64,000 bases of DNA from Mesorhizobium sp. J8. Its GTDB lineage: Bacteria; Pseudomonadota; Alphaproteobacteria; Rhizobiales; Rhizobiaceae. The translations under genes were made by a program, and so were the position numbers. The notes beneath the pieces were generated by a model that made no database searches, was not told the DNA's origin, and was given only the letters and a program-made list of their open reading frames with translations. Shown here in pieces: positions 25,045 to 49,750 of this stretch; the stretch's first letter is position 1; each line of letters starts with the position of its first letter. The DNA is taken from contig NZ_AP024109.1 of NCBI RefSeq assembly GCF_016591715.1, positions 6,136,001 to 6,200,000 of the forward strand, written 5' to 3'.

Positions 25045-26397
25045 TCAGACGCGTTTGCGATAGAGGGTGTCGAGCCATACCGCGATCACCAGCACGGCAC
25101 CGACGACGATGCTCTGCAGCGGCGAGTCGACGCCGAGCAGCACCATGCCGGACTGCAGCGATTGCATCAGCAGCGCGCCGAGCATGGCGCCGAGCACGGT
25201 TCCGGAACCGCCGGCAAGCGACGTACCGCCGATGACGGCGGCGGCAATGACCAGCAGCTCGTCCAGCGTGCCGAGCGCATTGGTCGACGAATTCTGCCTG
25301 GCCGACGAGATCGCCGCCGCGATCGTCGCCAGCACGCCCACGATCATGAACACCTTCATGGTGATCCAGCGCGTGTTGATGCCGGCGAGGTTGGCCGCTT
25401 CCGGATTGCCGCCGATGGCGAAGACATAGCGGCCGAAGCGCGTGCGCTTGGTGACGAAGGTCATGATCAGGCCGACGGCGACCGCCATCAGCACCGGAAT
25501 GGCGATGCCATGCGCGATGAACAGCCCGCCCTCGGGGACGGTGATGTTGTTGGCGGCGGCGTAGCGGTTCACGATACCGACCGGCCAGGGATAGGAGTTG
25601 GCGAGCCAGACGGCGCCCAGGATGATCGCGCAGGTGACCGTGGCGAGCAGCGTCTCGGCCCAGACCGGACGTAGCGGGAAACGGAAGCGCTTGCGCTGCA
25701 CGCGGCCGTTATAATGCATGAAAATGACCGCAAGGCAGGCGACGATGCCGACGACCCAGCTCCATTTGGCGCCGATCGAACCCGCCGGGCCGCCGCCCAT
25801 CAGCTGGAAGGTGGTGTCGAGCGGCGCCACGGTCTGGCCGCTGGTGACCCACCAGGCAGCGCCCCGCCACACCAGCAATCCGCCCAGCGTGACGATGAAG
25901 GCCGGCACTTCGAGATAGGCGATGATGAAGCCCTGGAAGGCGCCGATGATGAGGCCGAGCGCCAGGCCGATCAGCAATGCCAGGACCCATATCCAGGGAT
26001 TGCCCAATTCGAGCCCGACGAAGCGCACCAGGAAATGCACTTGGGCAAAGCCCATGATCATGCCGATCACCCCTTCGGCCGATCCGACCGACAGGTCGAT
26101 GTTGCGCATGACGATGACCAGCACCATGCCGGAAGCCATGATCGCCACGGCCGACGTCTGCACCGACAGGTTCCATAGATTGCGCGGCGTGAGGAAGGTG
26201 CGGCTGTCGAAGTCGAGCGGATTGACGCCGAGCCGCAGGCTGGAGATCACATGCAGCCCGACCCAGATCAAGAGCAGCGCGCCGATCATGCCGAGCATGC
26301 GGGTGTCGAGCTCGGTCGCCTTCAGGAACCGGGCGACGGCGCCCAGTTCCGACGCGCGCGCGGTGTCGGCCGGTTGCGTGGACGTCGTGTCGGTCAT
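25045..26397 (-). CDS. Sugar ABC transporter permease (XylH/FrcC-like)
   Basis: A 450-residue inner-membrane protein of the carbohydrate-uptake-2 permease family. It has about ten or more helices. The early motif [11 protein letters not shown] and the late motif [15 protein letters not shown] followed by [16 protein letters not shown] are family landmarks. Its length is nearer XylH than RbsC or FrcC (about 330-360), owing to a central insertion with the charged [13 protein letters not shown] segment around residue 235. It lies between the binding-protein and ATPase genes and presumably forms a homodimeric channel. The gap to the binding protein holds a repeat and a hairpin. Confidence 0.88.
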
Positions 26398-42616: not shown

Positions 42617-42919
42617 TCACCGGAACATAAGGAGCATGGCGATCAGGGATGAGATCGACAGGACCGCGGCTGCGGACAGAACCGCCAATATCTGAAAGCT
42701 GATCGGCAACTGCCGAAACCGTTTCCACGTCCACGGTTCCTTTTCCCAGTGCTGAAATCGCGGCAACCACTGTTCCCTTGGTCCGAGCCCCGTCGCCTCG
42801 GCGAACCGGGCAGCGATCGACCACGCCGACAGGTTGCCGATATCGACGAACTGCGATCTAGCGCCTTCAGCCTGGGAGTGACATCTGCCGAAAGTCAGGG
42901 ACGATATGACGATAGTCAT
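42617..42919 (-). CDS. Possible small tail-anchored membrane protein
   Basis: A 100-residue frame. The middle is aromatic and charged (EQWLPRFQHWEKEPWTWKRF) and the C-terminus is one membrane helix (FQILAVLSAAAVLSISSLIA). This composition looks like coding rather than shadow sequence. Against it, the only ATG (42917-42919) lies inside the dyad pair at 42886-42921 and no clear ribosome site is present. If real, its own translation start is covered by the operator. Confidence 0.35.
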   Translation of the reverse strand: MTIVISSLTFGRCHSQAEGARSQFVDIGNLSAWSIAARFAEATGLGPREQWLPRFQHWEKEPWTWKRFRQLPISFQILAVLSAAAVLSISSLIAMLLMFR

Positions 42920-42993: not shown

Positions 42994-44067
42994 ATGATCG
43001 ATATCGGCACAGAATTACTGCCGGCCGCGCAAGCGGAAGTCATCGGACTTGCTGTTTTGCAGGCCGACAGGACTGTTCAGCAAAAGGTGGGGCGCCTGGT
43101 CGAGTGGCTGCCGGCCCTTGGAGCCGACTGCTGCCTGTGCACGCTGCTGGTCGGGATGGAGGCCGAGATGGCGGCCTTGTCCGAAGGGCGCCGCGATCTG
43201 ATCGCCTTGTCCGGCGTGCGGGCCGAATTGCCGGGACTGGACCGCCCCGTCACCGCGGTCATCCTGTGGAACGGCGATCGATCGCACTATGTCGTGATCG
43301 CGATGCCTGATTTCACGGCGCGCCAGGCCGAGATCATGTTCGAAAGCGAGCGGCGCGCCCGACGCCTGATGGAGCAGCAGCTCGAAGCTGCCAGCTCCGA
43401 GGTGCGCTTCGCCTCGCTCGCCCGCACACGGCTGCGCCTGGCGCGCGATCTCCACGACACGCTCGTGCATTCGATCATCGCATTGCTGACGCAAATCCGG
43501 CTGACGCGGCATTTTCTGGCGACCGATCCGGCTCGCGTCTCGGACGGGCTGGCGACTGCCGAGGAAGCCGCGATAAACGGCTTGGCGCGGGCGCGCGACG
43601 CCATCGCCCGGCTCAGGATGCCTGACGACCTCGAACCGGGTTCGGACGTCGAGGAGATGCTGTCTGAGTTCGCCCAGCAGACCGGCATCGAGGTCTCAAC
43701 GCGGATCGACGACGGAGCCCGCGCCGGTTTGCAGGATCACGCGACGACGATCCGGCGCATTGTCGGCGAGGCGTTGCGCAACGTCGAGGCGCACGCGAAA
43801 GCGCGACACGTCCGGTTCGACGCGGTCGTGGAGAAGACCGAAGCTGGCCGAAGCCTTGTTGTCGATATCCGCGACGACGGGCGCGGCTTTGACCGGACCA
43901 TCCCCAAGCAAGGGCATTTCGGGCTGATTGGAATGGCCGAATTCGCCGAGCTCGCAGGGGGACGCTGCGCTGTGGAAAGCGCGCCGGGCGCGGGAACGCT
44001 GGTCCGGACCTCCCTTCCCCTGACCGTGCCGGCGACGAACGACCGGTCCGGCGCTGTGGGGGTGTAG
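42994..44067 (+). CDS. Soluble HisKA_3 (DegS/NarX-type) sensor kinase
   Basis: A 357-residue kinase without a membrane helix. Residues about 1-115 form an unrecognised sensor part with an ADCCLC cysteine cluster near residue 47 and VILWNGDRSHYVVI near 90, possibly PAS-like. A helix links to the HisKA_3 motif with the phosphoacceptor His in LARDLHDTLVHSI near residue 154. The ATPase domain has GEALRNVEAHAKA and DIRDDGRGFD. The next gene, four bases away, is its LuxR-type response regulator. The cysteine cluster might sense redox or a metal (inference). Tandem dyads lie upstream at 42886-42921. Confidence 0.85.
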   Translation: MIDIGTELLPAAQAEVIGLAVLQADRTVQQKVGRLVEWLPALGADCCLCTLLVGMEAEMAALSEGRRDLIALSGVRAELPGLDRPVTAVILWNGDRSHYVVIAMPDFTARQAEIMFESERRARRLMEQQLEAASSEVRFASLARTRLRLARDLHDTLVHSIIALLTQIRLTRHFLATDPARVSDGLATAEEAAINGLARARDAIARLRMPDDLEPGSDVEEMLSEFAQQTGIEVSTRIDDGARAGLQDHATTIRRIVGEALRNVEAHAKARHVRFDAVVEKTEAGRSLVVDIRDDGRGFDRTIPKQGHFGLIGMAEFAELAGGRCAVESAPGAGTLVRTSLPLTVPATNDRSGAVGV

Positions 44068-44071
44068 AACG

Positions 44072-44737
44072 ATGACCGATCCGCAGTCGAGGCCCGAAAG
44101 GATACGCGTGTTGATCGCCGAGGATCAGACATTGATCCGGGAAGGCCTCGCCACGCTCCTTTCCCAGCAAAATGACGATTTCGAGATTGTCGGCGCTGCC
44201 GCCAATGGCGAGCAGGCGATCGAGTTCGCGCGCCGCTACCGTCCGGACGTCGTCCTGATGGATCTGCAGATGCCGCGCGCCGACGGCGTCACGGCGACCC
44301 AGCGCATCCTGCGCGAATTTCCGGGCACCGGCATAGTGGTCCTGACCACTTTCGAGACCAACGAGCTGATTTTCGAGGCTGTGAGCGCGGGTGCCAAGGC
44401 CTATCTGTTGAAGGACTCCAGGATCGACGAGATCGCGGCGACGATCCGAACGGTGGCGAACGGCCAATCCGCGCTTTCACCCGGTGTCGCCACGAAAATT
44501 TTGGAAGAATTCAAGCGGTTGCGTCCGCGGCACGCTCCGGCGAGCGCGTCGGTCCGCAGCGATCTGACCGCGCGCGAGAACGAGATCCTGAAACTGGTCA
44601 TCGAAGGCAAGAGCAATGGCGAGATCGGCGCGCAACTGCATCTGGCCGAGGGCACGATCAAGAATTACGTCAGCACGATCCTGGAGAAGTGCGGGGCCAA
44701 GAACAGGACCGAGCTGGCCATAAAAACGATAAGTTGA
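44072..44737 (+). CDS. NarL/FixJ-family response regulator
   Basis: A 221-residue regulator. The receiver (about 10-130) has VLIAEDQTLIREGL, the phosphoacceptor in VVLMDLQMPRADG near residue 62 and the Lys in YLLKDSRID. The LuxR-type HTH (about 155-215) has LTARENEILKLVIEGKSNGE and AEGTIKNYVSTILEK. Such proteins bind short inverted repeats as dimers, so the TGAC-N4-GTCA dyads nearby are natural candidates for its sites. It is co-transcribed with the preceding kinase. Confidence 0.9.
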   Translation: MTDPQSRPERIRVLIAEDQTLIREGLATLLSQQNDDFEIVGAAANGEQAIEFARRYRPDVVLMDLQMPRADGVTATQRILREFPGTGIVVLTTFETNELIFEAVSAGAKAYLLKDSRIDEIAATIRTVANGQSALSPGVATKILEEFKRLRPRHAPASASVRSDLTARENEILKLVIEGKSNGEIGAQLHLAEGTIKNYVSTILEKCGAKNRTELAIKTIS

Positions 44738-44803
44738 ACGCCGTTCGATGCGCCGTGACCTCGAGTTTTTCTCCAGCACGGGGCCTGCCAGTCAATCGAA
44801 CCT

Positions 44804-44863
44804 GCAAAAAGACCCGCGGCTCCGGGGTTTCGGAGGTGGGGGAGCCACGGGCAGTCTTGTTGC
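44804..44863 (-). ncRNA. Candidate small-RNA terminator hairpin with anti-Shine-Dalgarno loop
   Basis: On the minus strand GGCTCC...GGAGCC and flanking CCCG/CGGG pairs form a long stem ending in TTTTT (44810-44806), a good intrinsic terminator. Its loop carries CCCCACCTCC, complementary to ribosome-binding sites. Loops of this kind occur in rhizobial sRNAs of the alpha-r14 type. It could also be just the terminator of a gene at 44912-45253. The 5' end of any RNA is not defined. Confidence 0.4.
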
Positions 44864-44911
44864 CTGAGTTCCTGCTCTTGTCGGCAGGTCGAGGGAGGCC
44901 GCGTCGACGCC

Positions 44912-45253
44912 TCACAGTAGTGCTTGGCGGCTACGTCTTTCGCGAAGCGCCAGTATGGTCAGAATCATTTCGGCGCTACCGATCGACAGCTCCGGCGCAA
45001 GCAGGGACAGGGGCGCGTGGAGTTGCATGGCGCCCATTTCGGCCAGTTGGGCCTTGACGGTCCGCATGGTCTCCTCGAGCCTCGTGAACAATCCGCAACG
45101 ATCTTCATTGTTCGAGGCCTTGCCGATGGTCACGTGGGTGACCCCGTTGAAGGCAGAAATGCTGTGCCGGAGGATTTCCGCTGGTCGGCCGCGAAGGCTT
45201 GCGGACCGAAAAAACGAGGATAGACGTTGCAGAATCCGAGGCGGCCGGGCCAA
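44912..45253 (-). CDS. Doubtful 113-residue hypothetical protein
   Basis: A frame with a basic N-terminus and a more protein-like C-terminal part (MRTVKAQLAEMGAMQLHAPL, then SAEMILTILALRERR). The C-terminal 50 residues could be a helix pair. No ribosome site or family supports it. The only support is that a terminator-like hairpin follows in the same direction. Confidence 0.25.
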   Translation of the reverse strand: MARPPRILQRLSSFFRSASLRGRPAEILRHSISAFNGVTHVTIGKASNNEDRCGLFTRLEETMRTVKAQLAEMGAMQLHAPLSLLAPELSIGSAEMILTILALRERRSRQALL

Positions 45254-45278
45254 GGCCCGACCGCATCGAACGATCCCG

Positions 45279-45701
45279 TTATTTCTTGGCGAGCAGGTCG
45301 CGGATTTCGGTCAAAAGCTGCACATCGGCCGGCGGCGGCGCGGCGGCGGGCGCCGGCTTCTCGCGTTCCAGCCGCTTGCGCAGATTGTTCACCGCCTTGA
45401 CCATCAGGAAGATGATGAAGGCCAGGATCAGGAAATTCAGCACCACGGTGATGAAGGAGCCGTAGGCGAAGACGGCGCCTTCTTTCTTGGCCTCGGCCAG
45501 CGTGGCCGAATGGACGTTCGAGGACAGTCCGAAGAAGTAATTGTTGAAGTCCAGCCCACCGAAGATCGCGCCGACGATCGGCATGATGATGTCGTTGACG
45601 AGCGAATCGACGATCTTGGAGAAGGCCGCGCCGATGATGACGCCGACGGCCAAGTCCATCACATTGCCTTTGGAAATGAATTCCTGGAATTCTTTCAGCA
45701 T
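45279..45701 (-). CDS. mscL: Large-conductance mechanosensitive channel MscL
   Basis: A 140-residue channel protein. The N-terminus [20 protein letters not shown] and the first pore helix match MscL; the second helix is at about 75-100 ([16 protein letters not shown]). The cytoplasmic helix [12 protein letters not shown] ends the protein. It opens under membrane tension to release solutes on osmotic downshock. I start at 45701 (AGGAG seven bases before), which gives the normal MLKEF opening; an ATG two codons earlier is also present. A hairpin GGGCGG...CCGCCC (45717-45754) lies just before the ribosome site. Confidence 0.95.
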
Positions 45702-45716
45702 CCCCATCTCCTCTTA

Positions 45717-45754
45717 GGGCGGCTCACCGTTTCACGAAAAACGGCGAACCGCCC
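45717..45754. repeat. Hairpin in the mscL leader
   Basis: GGGCGG (45717-45722) and CCGCCC (45749-45754) pair, with inner arms CACCGTTT and AAACGGCG around the loop. It sits about ten bases upstream of the mscL ribosome site and borders a family A repeat. Confidence 0.5.
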
Positions 45755-45771
45755 TATCTCCTTGATTTGAC

Positions 45772-45813
45772 GCAATTCCGGACGGAAACCGAACACAGTT
45801 TTCCCGGGATTGC
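45772..45813. repeat. Family A palindromic repeat
   Basis: Arms GCAATTCC (45772-45779) and GGGATTGC (45806-45813) enclose GGACGGAAA and GTTTTCC. It is the inverted counterpart of the element at 26502-26545. It lies between the DUF2853 and mscL genes. Confidence 0.7.
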
Positions 45814-45838
45814 TCTGCCCCATTTGCCATTTGCGCCG

Positions 45839-46180
45839 TCAGGCGAAGACGCTCTCGCGCCTGAAATGCTTGACGAGCAGATAGTAGAAGACCGCGCGAT
45901 GTTTGTTGCGGTTGGTCCGGCCGTACTGGTCGATAACCCTGGCTAGCCCCGCATCCAGGCCGACATCGTCGGCCAGCCCCAGTCTTTTGACGAGGAAATT
46001 CTTCTTGACCCGTTCCAGTTCCTCCTTGTCCGAGGCCGAGACGGTGGATGCATCCTTGTCGTAGATCGCCGGGCCGCAGCCCTTCGTCACTTTCGTCAGG
46101 AGATCCATGTCCGCCGTAAGGCCGCACTTGACCCTCAGGTCCGCCGCATATTTGCTGATCAGTTCGTCTTGCTTGCTCAC
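45839..46180 (-). CDS. DUF2853 family protein
   Basis: A 113-residue soluble protein. The family landmarks are KYAADLRVKCGLTADMDLLTKV near residue 10, GCGPAIYDKDASTVSASDKEE near 34 and the basic C-terminus with KHRAVFYYLLVKHF. DUF2853 proteins are short, helical and of unknown function; they occur in Rhizobiales and Bacteroidetes. The length is normal. It lies upstream of mscL in the same direction, 132 bases away, with a repeat between. Confidence 0.85.
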   Translation of the reverse strand: MSKQDELISKYAADLRVKCGLTADMDLLTKVTKGCGPAIYDKDASTVSASDKEELERVKKNFLVKRLGLADDVGLDAGLARVIDQYGRTNRNKHRAVFYYLLVKHFRRESVFA

Positions 46181-46281
46181 ACGCTTGCCCTCGTTTTCCG
46201 GCCGGACAGCGATGTTGCCGTCGAGCCGCGCGGCCTGGTTGCCGCAAAGCCATGTCCGGATTGTCTTGCTGCCCGTAGGTG

Positions 46282-46632
46282 TCAGCTGTTGCGCGTCGCA
46301 AGCACGCCGTCGGGGCTAGCCTTGTCGACGGCGGCGGGCAGATGCTCAGCCAGGACGCCGGCCACCTGGTCCAGAGGAATCCCGAACTGGCTGGCCAGTT
46401 GCTGCAGGCGTTGGTCGCCAAGCGCCGCCTGGATCTCGTCGGGCGCGATCGGAAGATTTGCGGCGTTGGTGCTCAGCCATGATTCGACGCGGTCGCCGAG
46501 ACCTGACTTCTGCAGCATGGCAAGCACGCCCTGGTAACCGCCGACGCTGGTCAGCGCATCGGCCAGGAGGTTTGAGCCTCCGCCCTGCTGCCCGCCCTGC
46601 AATGCGCTTTGCAGACTGTCCAAAAATCCCAT
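46282..46632 (-). CDS. YidB-like protein (DUF937)
   Basis: A 116-residue protein. The N-terminus MGFLDSLQSALQGGQQGGGS and the Gly/Gln-rich linker are followed by a helical domain (about 25-105) with YQGVLAMLQKSGLGDRVESW and IPLDQVAGVLAEHLP. This is the YidB/DUF937 pattern, cytoplasmic and of unknown function. GGAGG lies before the start. Two TGAC-N4-GTCA dyads are 84-117 bases upstream (46716-46749), making this one of three genes with that arrangement. Confidence 0.85.
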   Translation of the reverse strand: MGFLDSLQSALQGGQQGGGSNLLADALTSVGGYQGVLAMLQKSGLGDRVESWLSTNAANLPIAPDEIQAALGDQRLQQLASQFGIPLDQVAGVLAEHLPAAVDKASPDGVLATRNS

Positions 46633-46715
46633 CTGGGAACCTCCCGTCGAAAAATCACATCCGCCGTCGCGCAGCGTTCGGCGTGATGTATGCCGTTTCG
46701 CGGGATTGCGACACT

Positions 46716-46749
46716 TGACGAAGGTCAGGACCGAAGATGACGAAAGTCA
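46716..46749. promoter_or_regulatory. Tandem TGAC-N4-GTCA dyads (locus 3)
   Basis: TGAC-GAAG-GTCA (46716-46727) and TGAC-GAAA-GTCA (46738-46749), both perfect and 22 bases apart. It lies before the YidB-like gene and could also act on the divergent operon at 47021. Confidence 0.65.
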
Positions 46750-46840
46750 CATTCGGCGGCAGGCTGATCGCACTTACACCAGGCACCGTTCCTGGCGCGC
46801 TCGTTTCCGGTAAGGGACGGGTAAGCTCGATCCGACCCAG

Positions 46841-46924
46841 TTCGAAGGACGACTGGCGTGAGCCTCGTCATTGCGGTAGGTGACGATGGACAGGGCTGCG
46901 TAAATGCCACGCCAGACGTTCGAA
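46841..46924. repeat. Nested imperfect inverted repeat
   Basis: TTCGAAGGACGACTGGCGTG (46841-46860) pairs with CACGCCAGACGTTCGAA (46908-46924). A smaller CGTCA...TGACG stem lies inside. It could be a decayed repeat or a structured leader. Confidence 0.4.
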
Positions 46925-47020
46925 AGCCCACGACGGCAATAAGTCGGTTGCCTGTCATACGAATTAGGATTTGATATAACGGTCGTCACAGTCAGTGAGC
47001 GCGAGAATCGAGGAAAGAAA

Positions 47021-47374
47021 ATGAAAGCCGCCGAGCAAGCCGCAAAAGCCGCGGACAGAGCTGCCTCCGCCAATGGATCGGAAGCCACGATCCATGCCGA
47101 GGCCACGATCGATCAGGTTCGCAATCTCCTGTTCGGAGGCGCGCAGCGATCGCTCGAAAGCAATCTGGCCGATCTGCGCGAGGAGATGCAGGCCAGCATC
47201 AAGCAGCTCCAGGCGGACTTTGCGAAGGAGCTGGCGGCCCTGCAGGCCCACGTCCTGGAGCTCGAGCGGGAGACCGAGCAGAAGCGGCTCGCCTCGCAAC
47301 GGGACATCGGCGCCGCGATTTCGGACCTTGGAGCAACCATCAGCGGGCTAGGGTCCGGCCGCGCGGGAAAGTAG
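47021..47374 (+). CDS. Short coiled-coil protein of the GTPase/OmpA operon
   Basis: A 117-residue soluble protein. Residues 1-30 are Ala-rich; residues about 45-100 form a coiled coil rich in Gln, Leu and Glu. The segment IDQVRNLLFGGAQRSLESN (about 30-48) closely resembles the start of the next protein (IEQLRKLLFQTEAARLEAL), so the two share a motif, perhaps a common docking helix. GAGGAAAG precedes the ATG. It ends one base before the next gene's start region, so the two are co-transcribed. No known family is recognised. Confidence 0.7.
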   Translation: MKAAEQAAKAADRAASANGSEATIHAEATIDQVRNLLFGGAQRSLESNLADLREEMQASIKQLQADFAKELAALQAHVLELERETEQKRLASQRDIGAAISDLGATISGLGSGRAGK

Positions 47375-47375
47375 C

Positions 47376-49244
47376 ATGACGTCCGCCGCCGGCCAGAATC
47401 GTGAGATCGAGCAGCTTAGAAAACTGCTCTTTCAAACGGAGGCGGCGCGTCTCGAGGCCCTGGGAGCGGACGTCGCTCTGCTTCAGCAATATATCGGCAG
47501 CCCCGACCGACTGGAAATGGCGACAGCCGACATCCTCGTCGCCGCGCTGGAACGCGCCGAAGTCGTTCGGCCGCGCGAGCTGGCCAATGTCATCGCGCCG
47601 TCGGTGGTCTCCGCGATCCGTAGCGAGATCAGGAACTCGCGCGACCTCATGGTCGACGCCCTCTACCCGATCACCGGCCGGCTGGTCAGCGCGGCCGTGG
47701 CGAACGCCTTCAAGGAACTCGTCGCGCGGCTGGAGCAGCGCCTCAACGCGCTGACATCGACGGAGCTGTGGATCGGGCGCATCAAGTCGCTGGCGACGGG
47801 CCGTCCGATCAGCGAGTTCGTTCTGGCGAACGCCAGCCCGCCGCGCGTCAACCGGCTGCTGATGATCGAGCGCGGCAACGGACGCCTCGTCGCGGACTGG
47901 AAGCGCGACGAGACCTCCGACGAGCGGGCCGACCTGCTGAGCGCGATGGTGGCGGCGATCCTGGAGTTTTCCGTCCAGGCCCTGGCCGGCGAAGGCAATC
48001 TGCAGCAGCTCGATTTCGGCGGACGCGAGATCGTGCTTCGCGCTTCGCCCCGGTTCATTCTGGCGGCGGAATGCATCGGCCCCCTCCGTCCGGTCGACGG
48101 CGCCAGGATCAATTCGCTTTTCTTCGACACGATCGAGAGCATGGACGGCGGCTCGGACTGCGACGCCGCCACGCTGGCGTCGCTGGCCTCCTCCATCGAA
48201 GCCGATCCCGCCGCCGAGGCCAAACCGCGTCGGGGCGGAAAGGTCGCCCTGTTCGTGCTCGCGGCTCTCGTCGCCGCCGGGCTGGCATGGCTGGCCGGCG
48301 TCTATTTGACCCGCACGATGTTGGAGCGACGTACGAACGCCGCACTCCATGAACTGGTCGGCAGGGAGCCGCTGTTGGAAAACTTCCCGCTGCGGCTGGA
48401 CTTTGACCATCGCGATCGCAGCGTCTCGGTCTCCGGCATAGAGCCAAGCGAGGTGCAGACGGCTCCGCTGATCGACGCCCTGGCCAAGGCCGCCGCGCCC
48501 TATCGGGTGGTCGGCCGAATCGGCGTCGTGCCGGGCATGGAACAGTCGGCGGCGCTGCGTGCCGATATCGACGCCCTGCGGCAGTCGGTGACCGGTCTCC
48601 AGGCGGGTATCGACGAAAACCGCCGGGCGATCGCCGAGCTGCAACAATCCCTTGCCGGCTTGCGCAAGTCCGCCGGCGAAACCGGCGAAGCGCTCGCCGG
48701 CCAGCAGCTGTCTCTCGCGGGCCTGCAGGCCCGTATCGATCAGACGCGCGGGCCGAGCCAGGAGGAGCTGCAATCCCTTGCCGGACTGCGGGCGGGTATC
48801 GACGAGATACACGCGGCGATGGCCGAGGAAGCAAAAGTCAGGAACCAGCAATACGAGGCGCTGCGGTCGATAGCCGACGGCCCCGCCGAGCGGCTCGATC
48901 GCTTCATGGCTTCGACCGCGATCTTCTTTGGCACGGCCGACGCATTCGCCGACGACAAGCAGGCCGAGCAACAAATCCGCGTTCTGGCCGGGCTTCTTGC
49001 CGGCAACGACCTGAGAATCCGGATTGTCGGCCACGCGGACGACACCGGGACGGAAACGATCAATCGCGTGGTTGCCCGCAAGAGGGCCGACCAGGTGGTA
49101 CACAAATTGGTTTCGCTCGGAATCGAGCCGTCGCGATTGTTCGCGGTTTCACGCTCGTCGTCGATGCCGATTTCGGACGTACGGAGTGAAGGAAACCGGC
49201 GTGTCACCTTCGAAAACGTCTTTCAAGCCGAGCGCCTTCAGTGA
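47376..49244 (+). CDS. Inner-membrane protein with C-terminal OmpA-like domain and cytoplasmic N-terminal module
   Basis: A 622-residue protein. Residues 1-285 are a cytoplasmic module with LVDALYPITGRL near 95 and WKRDETSDERADLLSAM near 175. One membrane helix lies at about 289-310 (ALFVLAALVAAGLAWLAGVY). A periplasmic BON-like part (about 335-385, SVSVSGIEPSEVQTAPLI) and a coiled coil (about 390-490) follow. The OmpA-type peptidoglycan-binding domain is at about 505-618 (RIVGHADDTGTETINRVVAR and NRRVTFENV). It thus bridges cytoplasm and cell wall. The stop overlaps the start of a Ras-like GTPase gene, so the GTPase probably acts on the N-terminal module. Confidence 0.8.
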   Translation: MTSAAGQNREIEQLRKLLFQTEAARLEALGADVALLQQYIGSPDRLEMATADILVAALERAEVVRPRELANVIAPSVVSAIRSEIRNSRDLMVDALYPITGRLVSAAVANAFKELVARLEQRLNALTSTELWIGRIKSLATGRPISEFVLANASPPRVNRLLMIERGNGRLVADWKRDETSDERADLLSAMVAAILEFSVQALAGEGNLQQLDFGGREIVLRASPRFILAAECIGPLRPVDGARINSLFFDTIESMDGGSDCDAATLASLASSIEADPAAEAKPRRGGKVALFVLAALVAAGLAWLAGVYLTRTMLERRTNAALHELVGREPLLENFPLRLDFDHRDRSVSVSGIEPSEVQTAPLIDALAKAAAPYRVVGRIGVVPGMEQSAALRADIDALRQSVTGLQAGIDENRRAIAELQQSLAGLRKSAGETGEALAGQQLSLAGLQARIDQTRGPSQEELQSLAGLRAGIDEIHAAMAEEAKVRNQQYEALRSIADGPAERLDRFMASTAIFFGTADAFADDKQAEQQIRVLAGLLAGNDLRIRIVGHADDTGTETINRVVARKRADQVVHKLVSLGIEPSRLFAVSRSSSMPISDVRSEGNRRVTFENVFQAERLQ

Positions 49245-49750
49245 TGTTCAGCGCGAAGGTCATGCTGCTGGGTGACATGGGTGTGGGCAAGACCTCGATC
49301 ATGTACCGCCTCGTGCATGATCGTTTCGACGGCGAATACAAATCCACGCTCGGCGTCGAGGTGCTGAGCTACGATGTTCCGGCCGATCCGCTTCGCGGGG
49401 GCGAGGCGGCGCGGCTCGTTCTGTGGGACACCGACGGCGATTTCGGCGCGCGTATTTTCGACACCGTTTATGTGACCGGCGCGTCGGCCGCGATCATCGT
49501 CTCGGACGTGACGCGCCCGCAAACGGTGACCCGCATGGTCGAGCTGGTCCGCAGCTTCGAGACGCGATTCCCGGGCAGGCCATACCGGGCGCTCGTGAAC
49601 AAGATCGATCTCGCCGAGGCCCCCGGCAGCGCCGAAGAGGTCGGCCAGTTGCCGCGCTCGAGCGTCAAGTTCGTGAGCGCCAAGAGCGGCGAGGGTGTCG
49701 TGGATGCCTTTGCCGAACTCGCCGAAACGATACGGCGTCGGCAGCTGTAG
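49244..49750 (+). CDS. Rab/Ras-like small GTPase
   Basis: A 168-residue small GTPase. G1 is LGDMGVGKTS (residues about 8-17), the switch-I Thr lies in YKSTLGVEV, G3 is LWDTDGDFG, G4 is VNKIDL and G5 is VSAKSG. The order and spacing are those of Ras-superfamily proteins rather than Era or Obg. The catalytic Gln that follows DTxG in Rab and Ras is Asp here, so hydrolysis may need a partner. There is no prenylation or membrane signal. The ATG at 49244 overlaps the previous stop as TGATG; a GTG at 49241 is an alternative. It is last of three genes with an OmpA-domain membrane protein. Confidence 0.88.
   Translation: MFSAKVMLLGDMGVGKTSIMYRLVHDRFDGEYKSTLGVEVLSYDVPADPLRGGEAARLVLWDTDGDFGARIFDTVYVTGASAAIIVSDVTRPQTVTRMVELVRSFETRFPGRPYRALVNKIDLAEAPGSAEEVGQLPRSSVKFVSAKSGEGVVDAFAELAETIRRRQL

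Follow-up and report, generated by a model that had tools for sequence, protein, structure and literature searches.

A predicted signalling relay of the Rup GTPase kind, from cell wall to response regulator, in Mesorhizobium sp. J8

In the genome of Mesorhizobium sp. J8, a gene for a small GTPase follows genes for a coiled-coil protein and for an inner-membrane protein with an OmpA-type peptidoglycan-binding domain (the OmpA protein), and the question that this locus raises is what such a GTPase could be coupled to. The locus lies in a stretch of 64,000 nucleotides that was analysed as a whole (the window; contig NZ_AP024109.1, positions 6,136,001 to 6,200,000 of the forward strand), and plain coordinates below are positions in the window. 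Together with a histidine kinase gene and a response regulator gene upstream, the three genes probably form a signalling relay of five genes that is of the Group 1 Rup kind; it would run from the cell wall to the regulator and respond to a change in how far membrane and wall are apart or in the tension between them. What computation shows is the gene set, the predicted folds, the linkage of the kinase-regulator pair, and the operator with its positions.

A preliminary description of the locus had reported three overlapping or abutting open reading frames (ORFs) at 47021..49750, and all three are present there. The gene for the OmpA protein begins one base beyond the end of the coiled-coil gene, and the more likely start of the GTPase gene, judged from the sequence, is an ATG at 49244 that overlaps the upstream stop codon as TGATG, rather than the GTG at 49241. 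A profile of the N-terminal module of the OmpA protein was searched across genomes, as the description had proposed, and the best 80 of 178 relatives of the module were taken as a set of loci. The GTPase gene was found in 77/80 of these loci and the coiled-coil gene in 78/80, which bears out the described combination of module, single membrane helix, OmpA domain and co-conserved GTPase. The GTPase gene was missed in L156, L190 and L232, in each case where the contig stops; the coiled-coil gene was missed in L205, again where a contig stops, and in L232, where it does not. In a second set of 40 loci, which is drawn partly from the same genomes and includes the window's own locus, the coiled coil was found in 38/40 and the GTPase in 39/40, the GTPase gene being divergent in L123, L125 and L127. 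The order coiled coil, OmpA protein, GTPase goes far beyond what chance would give. In the window's genome the GTPase has no second clear copy (next match E 0.18), and other matches to the OmpA protein are confined to its OmpA-domain part.

The best Pfam match of the GTPase is Ras (7.4e-22), and the Roc and Arf models also score above their curated cut-offs. Residues of the G1, G3 (DxxG), G4 and G5 motifs are present. The position of Gln61 of Ras is occupied by Asp, and among 78 aligned relatives, the window included, none has Gln there (59 Asp, 12 Asn, three Glu, three other residues and one gap). The closest solved relatives are Ypt7 (4e-17) and Rab-18 (6e-17); five solved chains match at E<=1e-15, and MglA is not among them. 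The coiled-coil protein has Pfam matches of coiled-coil type, all below threshold. NCBIfam models contribute matches to the OmpA domain and weak ones of coiled-coil type.

The first 285 residues of the OmpA protein have no Pfam match up to E=10, and a profile of the module found no convincing relative among the sequences of solved structures (best E 0.11). The predicted structure of the module has both the topology of a roadblock/longin domain and structural matches to such domains, which include MglB-MglA, Mon1-Ccz1-Ypt7 and TRAPP-Ypt1 entries. No roadblock family is among the Pfam matches of the proteins of the unit and block (42994-49750). The transmembrane helix was judged from the sequence together with a predicted helix at residues 288-309, and the protein is homologous to its Nostoc counterpart (E 2e-12). 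Many members of the roadblock/longin fold bind or regulate small GTPases; the predicted fold of the module fits direct binding of the GTPase and would explain how a Rup GTPase could be held by its membrane partner. The coiled-coil protein and the OmpA protein both begin with a similar IxQ(V/L)RxLLF stretch (hhalign E=1.3e-4, probability 54%), which a motif-profile test did not clearly separate from controls; the likeness is no more than suggestive, and the two are perhaps ligands of one site.

The same make-up has been described for Group 1 Rup GTPases by Wuichet & Søgaard-Andersen (2014; PMC4316618). As far as the available text of that paper goes, Group 1 loci comprise a coiled coil, a protein with an unknown domain and an OmpA domain, a GTPase and an output gene; the unknown-domain protein often has a membrane helix along with the OmpA domain, the GTPase lacks the Gln of G3, and the fourth gene typically encodes a c-di-GMP (cyclic diguanylate) enzyme or a histidine kinase with a conserved N-terminal region. 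The Rup family is said there to have no experimentally characterised member as of 2014. The preliminary description had known of no described system with this make-up in rhizobia, and the make-up itself is thus not new; in the text available, Group 1 is listed from Bacteroidetes, Chloroflexi, Cyanobacteria and gamma-Proteobacteria, and the word stem "rhizob" does not occur. Beyond that paper, a literature search that did not cover subscription journals gave no system of this make-up among the matches listed; the Rup name turned up, among the papers searched, in that paper and in one on stem-loop repeats. Of the Group 1 parts, the window has the coiled-coil gene beside rup, the protein that combines an unknown domain with a helix and an OmpA domain, and the GTPase without the G3 Gln. 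Downstream of the GTPase gene lies a tRNA-Glu gene on the opposite strand, with no adjoining output gene.

The output arm, which the preliminary description had missed, is a PAS kinase and NarL-type regulator encoded 2.3 kb upstream of the three genes, with yidB, DUF2853 and mscL on the other strand between. The genes of the description therefore stand, and its range was too narrow, because the unit also has the kinase and regulator genes at 42994-44737 and operators at 42886-42918 and 46716-46749. The kinase has the conserved N-terminal region of Group 1 outputs in a gene that is displaced rather than adjoining. Structure prediction assigned a PAS fold to this region, a profile of the PAS-like domain found no convincing relative among solved-structure sequences (best E 0.18), and no membrane helix was seen by eye in the kinase sequence. 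A profile was built from the N-terminal regions that output genes next to rup encode in 12 other loci; it found the window kinase at 2.5e-20, and at E=1.4e-15 with the single kinase-regulator example left out of training. The latter profile matched 92/5780 ORFs, one each in 92/120 Rup neighbourhoods (both locus sets, with some genomes common to the two), all within 3.3 kb of the three genes. Within its genome, only the window kinase clearly carries the domain (4e-59); the next match, at 0.03, covers just the end of the model. An output-domain gene was found in 62/80 loci and a kinase with a regulator in 48/80. The output arm of a Rup system has been identified here in rhizobia. In L123 (4292-4966), L125 (10065-10739) and L127 (6282-6956), a single 224-residue protein with a PAS-like domain and a LuxR-type helix-turn-helix is encoded as the Rup output next to the divergent rup gene (Pfam on L123).

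The module profile was positive in 92/146 Mesorhizobium genomes, 31/397 from the order and 50/398 from the phylum (17/212 genera). Mesorhizobium has two main types, a long one (often ~900-1040 codons open) and the short type of the window, found in 15 genomes. The kinase-regulator pair lies upstream in 14/15 window-type loci, the regulator adjoining the kinase, and the 15th is cut by its contig end; a kinase at E<=1e-90 occurs in 15/146 Mesorhizobium genomes, exactly those with the window-type module. The block 42994-49750 is absent as a whole from the corresponding site in 12 genomes (11 Mesorhizobium without the window type, and G090), in which the right-flank genes are present (for a 137-residue, a 127-residue, an RluD-like and a sigma-factor protein, the last named by eye), the left flank is also at that site in 7/12, and mscL is elsewhere in 12/12. 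Co-occurrence within Mesorhizobium alone could therefore be block inheritance. Adjoining gene order in other genera is better evidence of linkage: in G090, a related genome, the coiled-coil gene comes immediately after genes for a kinase and a NarL-type regulator, and the pair adjoins the three genes in Bradyrhizobium, Rhizobium BK602, Nitratireductor and the metagenome-assembled genome (MAG) SZAS-10. A chance neighbourhood or mobile island without functional link was dropped as an explanation, since in other genera the kinase, the regulator and the three genes adjoin with no mscL between them.

Upstream alignments of 15 Mesorhizobium loci before the coiled coil and 14 before the kinase gave one conserved element, paired TGACGANNGTCA, that stands both ahead of the kinase and in the interval from yidB to the coiled-coil gene. 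The pair stands before yidB in 15/15 Mesorhizobium loci and at 36/37 kinase promoters (from Mesorhizobium, Bradyrhizobium, Rhizobium BK602, Nitratireductor and SZAS-10), with a spacing of 22 bp in 30 loci and 21 bp in 6; at the sole promoter without it, L161, the start is called far upstream, and L102, on a contig of equal length, does have the kinase site. In the window, exact copies of the extended form TGACGANNGTCANATTCG are found only at 42907 and 46738, and with up to 3 mismatches it has 9 matches there vs 2.0 expected (the largest of 100 shuffles gave 6). Across ten genomes the pair with <=2 mismatches gave 12 sites, 10 of them at the kinase promoter by coordinates, against 0 for a reversed-pattern control; of the other two, one is before an AraC-type gene in Rhizobium BK602 and one is in SZAS-10. 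With <=3 mismatches and a fixed spacing of 22, 15 matches were found in five carrier Mesorhizobium genomes and 6 in four without the window type (G563 2, G574 4, G542 0, G608 0), none of the six being an exact or one-mismatch site; a control pattern gave 2, both in G541. The degenerate site before the coiled-coil gene has the same letters in G575 and was not reported for the three other carriers searched. A further pair with 1 mismatch, at 5674144 of the window's genome, also precedes an AraC-type gene, whose protein is 50% identical to that of Rhizobium BK602 (L187 1407-2339). The NarL-type regulator presumably binds the tandem operators. Because the operator is short and its candidate target genes can be named, a direct reporter assay is possible.

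Three observations on related sequences were made alongside. The AraC-type gene near 5674144 (L246 418-1407) has its tandem operator ~95 bp upstream of the likely start. A single exact TGACGAAGGTCA occurs elsewhere in the window at 25452-25463, and a 22-bp TGAC...GTCA-like repeat array occurs in L235 (G574 near 1628466-1628543), a genome without a window-type system.

The genes between the two halves of the unit bear on what the relay would control. mscL was found near 22/48 kinase-regulator loci vs 0/32 others (neighbour Pfam names were confirmed on examples), DUF3597 in 21/48 and YidB in 12/48, and DUF2853 in 12/48 and in 10/32 of the others. mscL takes three arrangements: between the two halves in Mesorhizobium, divergent from the kinase in SZAS-10, and downstream after DUF3597 in Bradyrhizobium. 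Uncut window-type loci have yidB and DUF2853 in 14/14 and mscL in 11/14. In 20/21 Bradyrhizobium loci, one operator-like copy is found in the stretch from rup to the start of DUF3597 or barely within that gene (97-106 bp upstream of DUF3597 in 14, although start calls vary); a relaxed site of this kind arose by chance in 208/4000 random 450-base stretches. mscL follows DUF3597 in 13/21 loci. Copies of mscL away from the Rup locus had no operator upstream in 12/12 genomes. Because the loci are related, mostly from two genera, the mscL and operator counts are not independent. Among the functions that the preliminary description had offered, envelope tension gains some support from the linked mscL genes and the operators in common, and nothing was found in favour of cell-wall growth or polarity. 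In the Hyphomicrobiaceae-type loci L213, L216, L218-L220, L222, L224, L228 and L230, a DUF2853 gene of the same strand lies a short way ahead of the coiled-coil gene.

Table 1 Features of the five-gene unit and the genes between its halves (positions in the window)
Feature	Position	Strand	Description	Evidence
Tandem operator	42886..42918	+	TGCCGAAAGTCA + TGACGATAGTCA, 21 bp apart, kinase-regulator promoter	
Histidine kinase	42994..44067	+	357 residues; PAS-like output domain ~11-153, HisKA_3, HATPase_c	Pfam, fold prediction
Response regulator	44072..44737	+	NarL/LuxR type, 221 residues	Pfam Response_reg 2.7e-26, GerE 7.4e-17
mscL	45279..45707	-	large-conductance mechanosensitive channel	Pfam MscL 3.2e-46
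DUF2853 protein	45839..46180	-		Pfam 5.2e-42
YidB-like protein	46282..46632	-	leads the yidB-DUF2853-mscL run, which diverges from the three-gene unit	Pfam 3.5e-20
Tandem operator	46716..46749	+	TGACGAAGGTCA-N10-TGACGAAAGTCA, divergent promoter region, 84-117 bp upstream of yidB	
Degenerate tandem operator-like site	46859..46892	-	3 mismatches, 22 bp spacing, 129-162 bp upstream of the coiled-coil gene	
Coiled-coil gene	47021..47374	+	117 residues, conserved IxQVRxLLFG-like motif	found in 78/80 loci
OmpA protein (inner membrane)	47376..49244	+	622 residues; helical N-terminus, predicted roadblock/longin domain, one transmembrane helix, coiled coil, OmpA domain	
Predicted roadblock/longin domain	47835..48215	+	residues ~154-280, topology b-b-a-b-b-b-a	structure prediction, structural matches
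OmpA-type peptidoglycan-binding domain	48957..49199	+	residues 528-608	Pfam PF00691 1.5e-11
Small GTPase of Rup type	49241..49750	+	169 residues from GTG; G1 GDMGVGKT, G3 DTDGD without Gln, G4 NKID	Pfam Ras

In the proposed relay, the OmpA domain would grip peptidoglycan and, across one membrane helix, would be connected to a cytoplasmic platform composed of the roadblock/longin domain and its coiled-coil partner. The platform would bind the small GTPase and set its nucleotide state, and the GTPase, or the platform itself, would act on the kinase through its PAS domain. Phosphorylated by the kinase, the NarL-type regulator would bind the paired operator sites and control both its own operon and runs of genes in which mscL is often included; candidate targets are its own genes, the yidB-DUF2853-mscL or DUF3597-mscL runs and the AraC gene. 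The likely stimulus would be an altered gap or tension between membrane and wall, brought about by turgor or wall damage. We infer the binding between the parts, the GTPase activity, the phosphotransfer, the binding of regulator to DNA, the operon structure, the direction of regulation and the stimulus. The gene set suggests an uncharacterised bacterial way of sensing envelope stress. A narrower version can be put forward only tentatively, namely a GTPase-gated mechanotransducer in which pull between wall and membrane would pass through the platform, the Rab-like GTPase and the PAS kinase and regulator to the amount of MscL, tuning pressure release to wall tension. If true, this would be a bacterial system that ties the state of the wall to a Rab-like switch and to MscL expression; to our knowledge, little is understood about how the state of the wall governs mechanosensitive channels in bacteria.

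Several observations weigh against the proposed relay. The predicted roadblock fold alone does not prove GTPase binding, and the kinases L209 and L211 stand near Rup genes and lack the output domain. The Gln reported as invariant in Group 1 outputs, a feature that does not define the group, is Glu in 62/62 kinase-regulator rows and Gln in 16/30 other outputs (the column was placed by our own alignment rather than from the paper's logo, and the rows include repeat genomes). The 2014 idea that the output domain supplies this Gln in trans is not supported for the window variant. Operator-like sites elsewhere in G633, G575, G541 and SZAS-10 are not explained. No operator was found at 8/9 more distant kinases or near DUF2853 in the 6 Hyphomicrobiaceae-type loci examined, and the operator regulon is therefore not universal. 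mscL was not detected near 26/48 kinase-regulator loci and is missing from 3/14 window-type loci that keep yidB and DUF2853 and from 8/21 DUF3597 loci; the 22 loci that have it are 13 from Bradyrhizobium, 8 from Mesorhizobium and 1 MAG.

The loss of mscL from those 3/14 loci, its absence near the other Rup loci (0/32) and the absence of the block as a whole from 12 genomes would also be expected if the same relay answered another cue, such as a PAS ligand or general stress, with mscL linked only as part of a stress-gene island. The DUF2853, YidB, DUF3597 and PsiF neighbours, which look like general stress genes, fit this explanation. Against it, an OmpA domain suggests that the cue comes from the wall, mscL is linked in three different arrangements of genes, and operators stand ahead of the gene run in two genera; another cue appears rather doubtful. 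A scaffold for polarity or wall growth, as with MglA in Myxococcus, in which the GTPase would position the OmpA rod and wall enzymes, with the kinase as a side branch, is unlikely: the GTPase and the predicted roadblock fold do resemble MglA-MglB, but the recurrent partners are signalling outputs (62/80 loci), and no polarity or wall-synthesis genes were met in the neighbourhoods read, although no search was aimed at such genes. That the kinase-regulator pair is a mere neighbour which takes no signal from the GTPase is very improbable, for despite the 2.3 kb gap with its three opposite-strand genes and a 15-genome co-occurrence that block inheritance could produce, the output domain of the kinase is also found in genes directly after rup in other families, the pair adjoins the three genes in several genera, and no other clear carrier of the domain exists in the genome.

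The proposed relay can be set beside known systems. Eukaryotic roadblock/longin platforms hold or switch small GTPases at a membrane, and Ragulator-Rag and Mon1-Ccz1/TRAPP-Rab are such platforms with fold matches to the window module; unlike these, the window system is bacterial, is anchored to peptidoglycan and has a two-component output. MglA-MglB of Myxococcus and Thermus likewise joins a small GTPase to a roadblock-fold partner, whereas in the window the predicted roadblock-like domain sits within a membrane protein that is anchored to the wall, the unit has no separate mglB gene, and the best solved matches of the GTPase are Ypt7 and Rab proteins. Actinobacterial conservons (CvnA-D) have a kinase, a roadblock-type protein, a further protein and a small GTPase in one operon, according to the part of PMC4316618 available; the window kinase differs in being soluble with a neighbouring response regulator, and the membrane part is the OmpA protein. 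With Group 1 Rup systems, as that text describes them, the window shares the four-part gene set, which the Nostoc locus L027 has in four-gene order. It differs in that the output consists of a kinase-regulator pair that stands apart upstream, with yidB-DUF2853-mscL displacing it, and in the Glu for the invariant Gln; the window system is moreover alphaproteobacterial, and its predicted roadblock/longin fold, operator and mscL link are not reported in the available text. Because of the Glu in every kinase-regulator row, the system is regarded as a variant that would work in the manner of Group 1 Rup systems and of conservons, rather than counted as a proven Group 1 member.

Relatives of the unit vary in size and arrangement. 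Long-type Rup loci occur in Rhizobium and Mesorhizobium, some on large plasmids (L028 9109-14494, L029 9167-14484, and L106-L108); in L106-L108 and the plasmid loci L028 and L029 the long type is followed by an adenylate/guanylate cyclase gene or one of equal length, and in L028 and L029 the part of the OmpA protein beyond the membrane helix contains repeated segments. In locus L231 (225-5108), two OmpA-type genes stand on either side of the coiled-coil gene. An antisense ORF of 587 residues (47340-49103, minus strand) runs across the OmpA gene of the window and is probably a by-product of high-GC codon usage.

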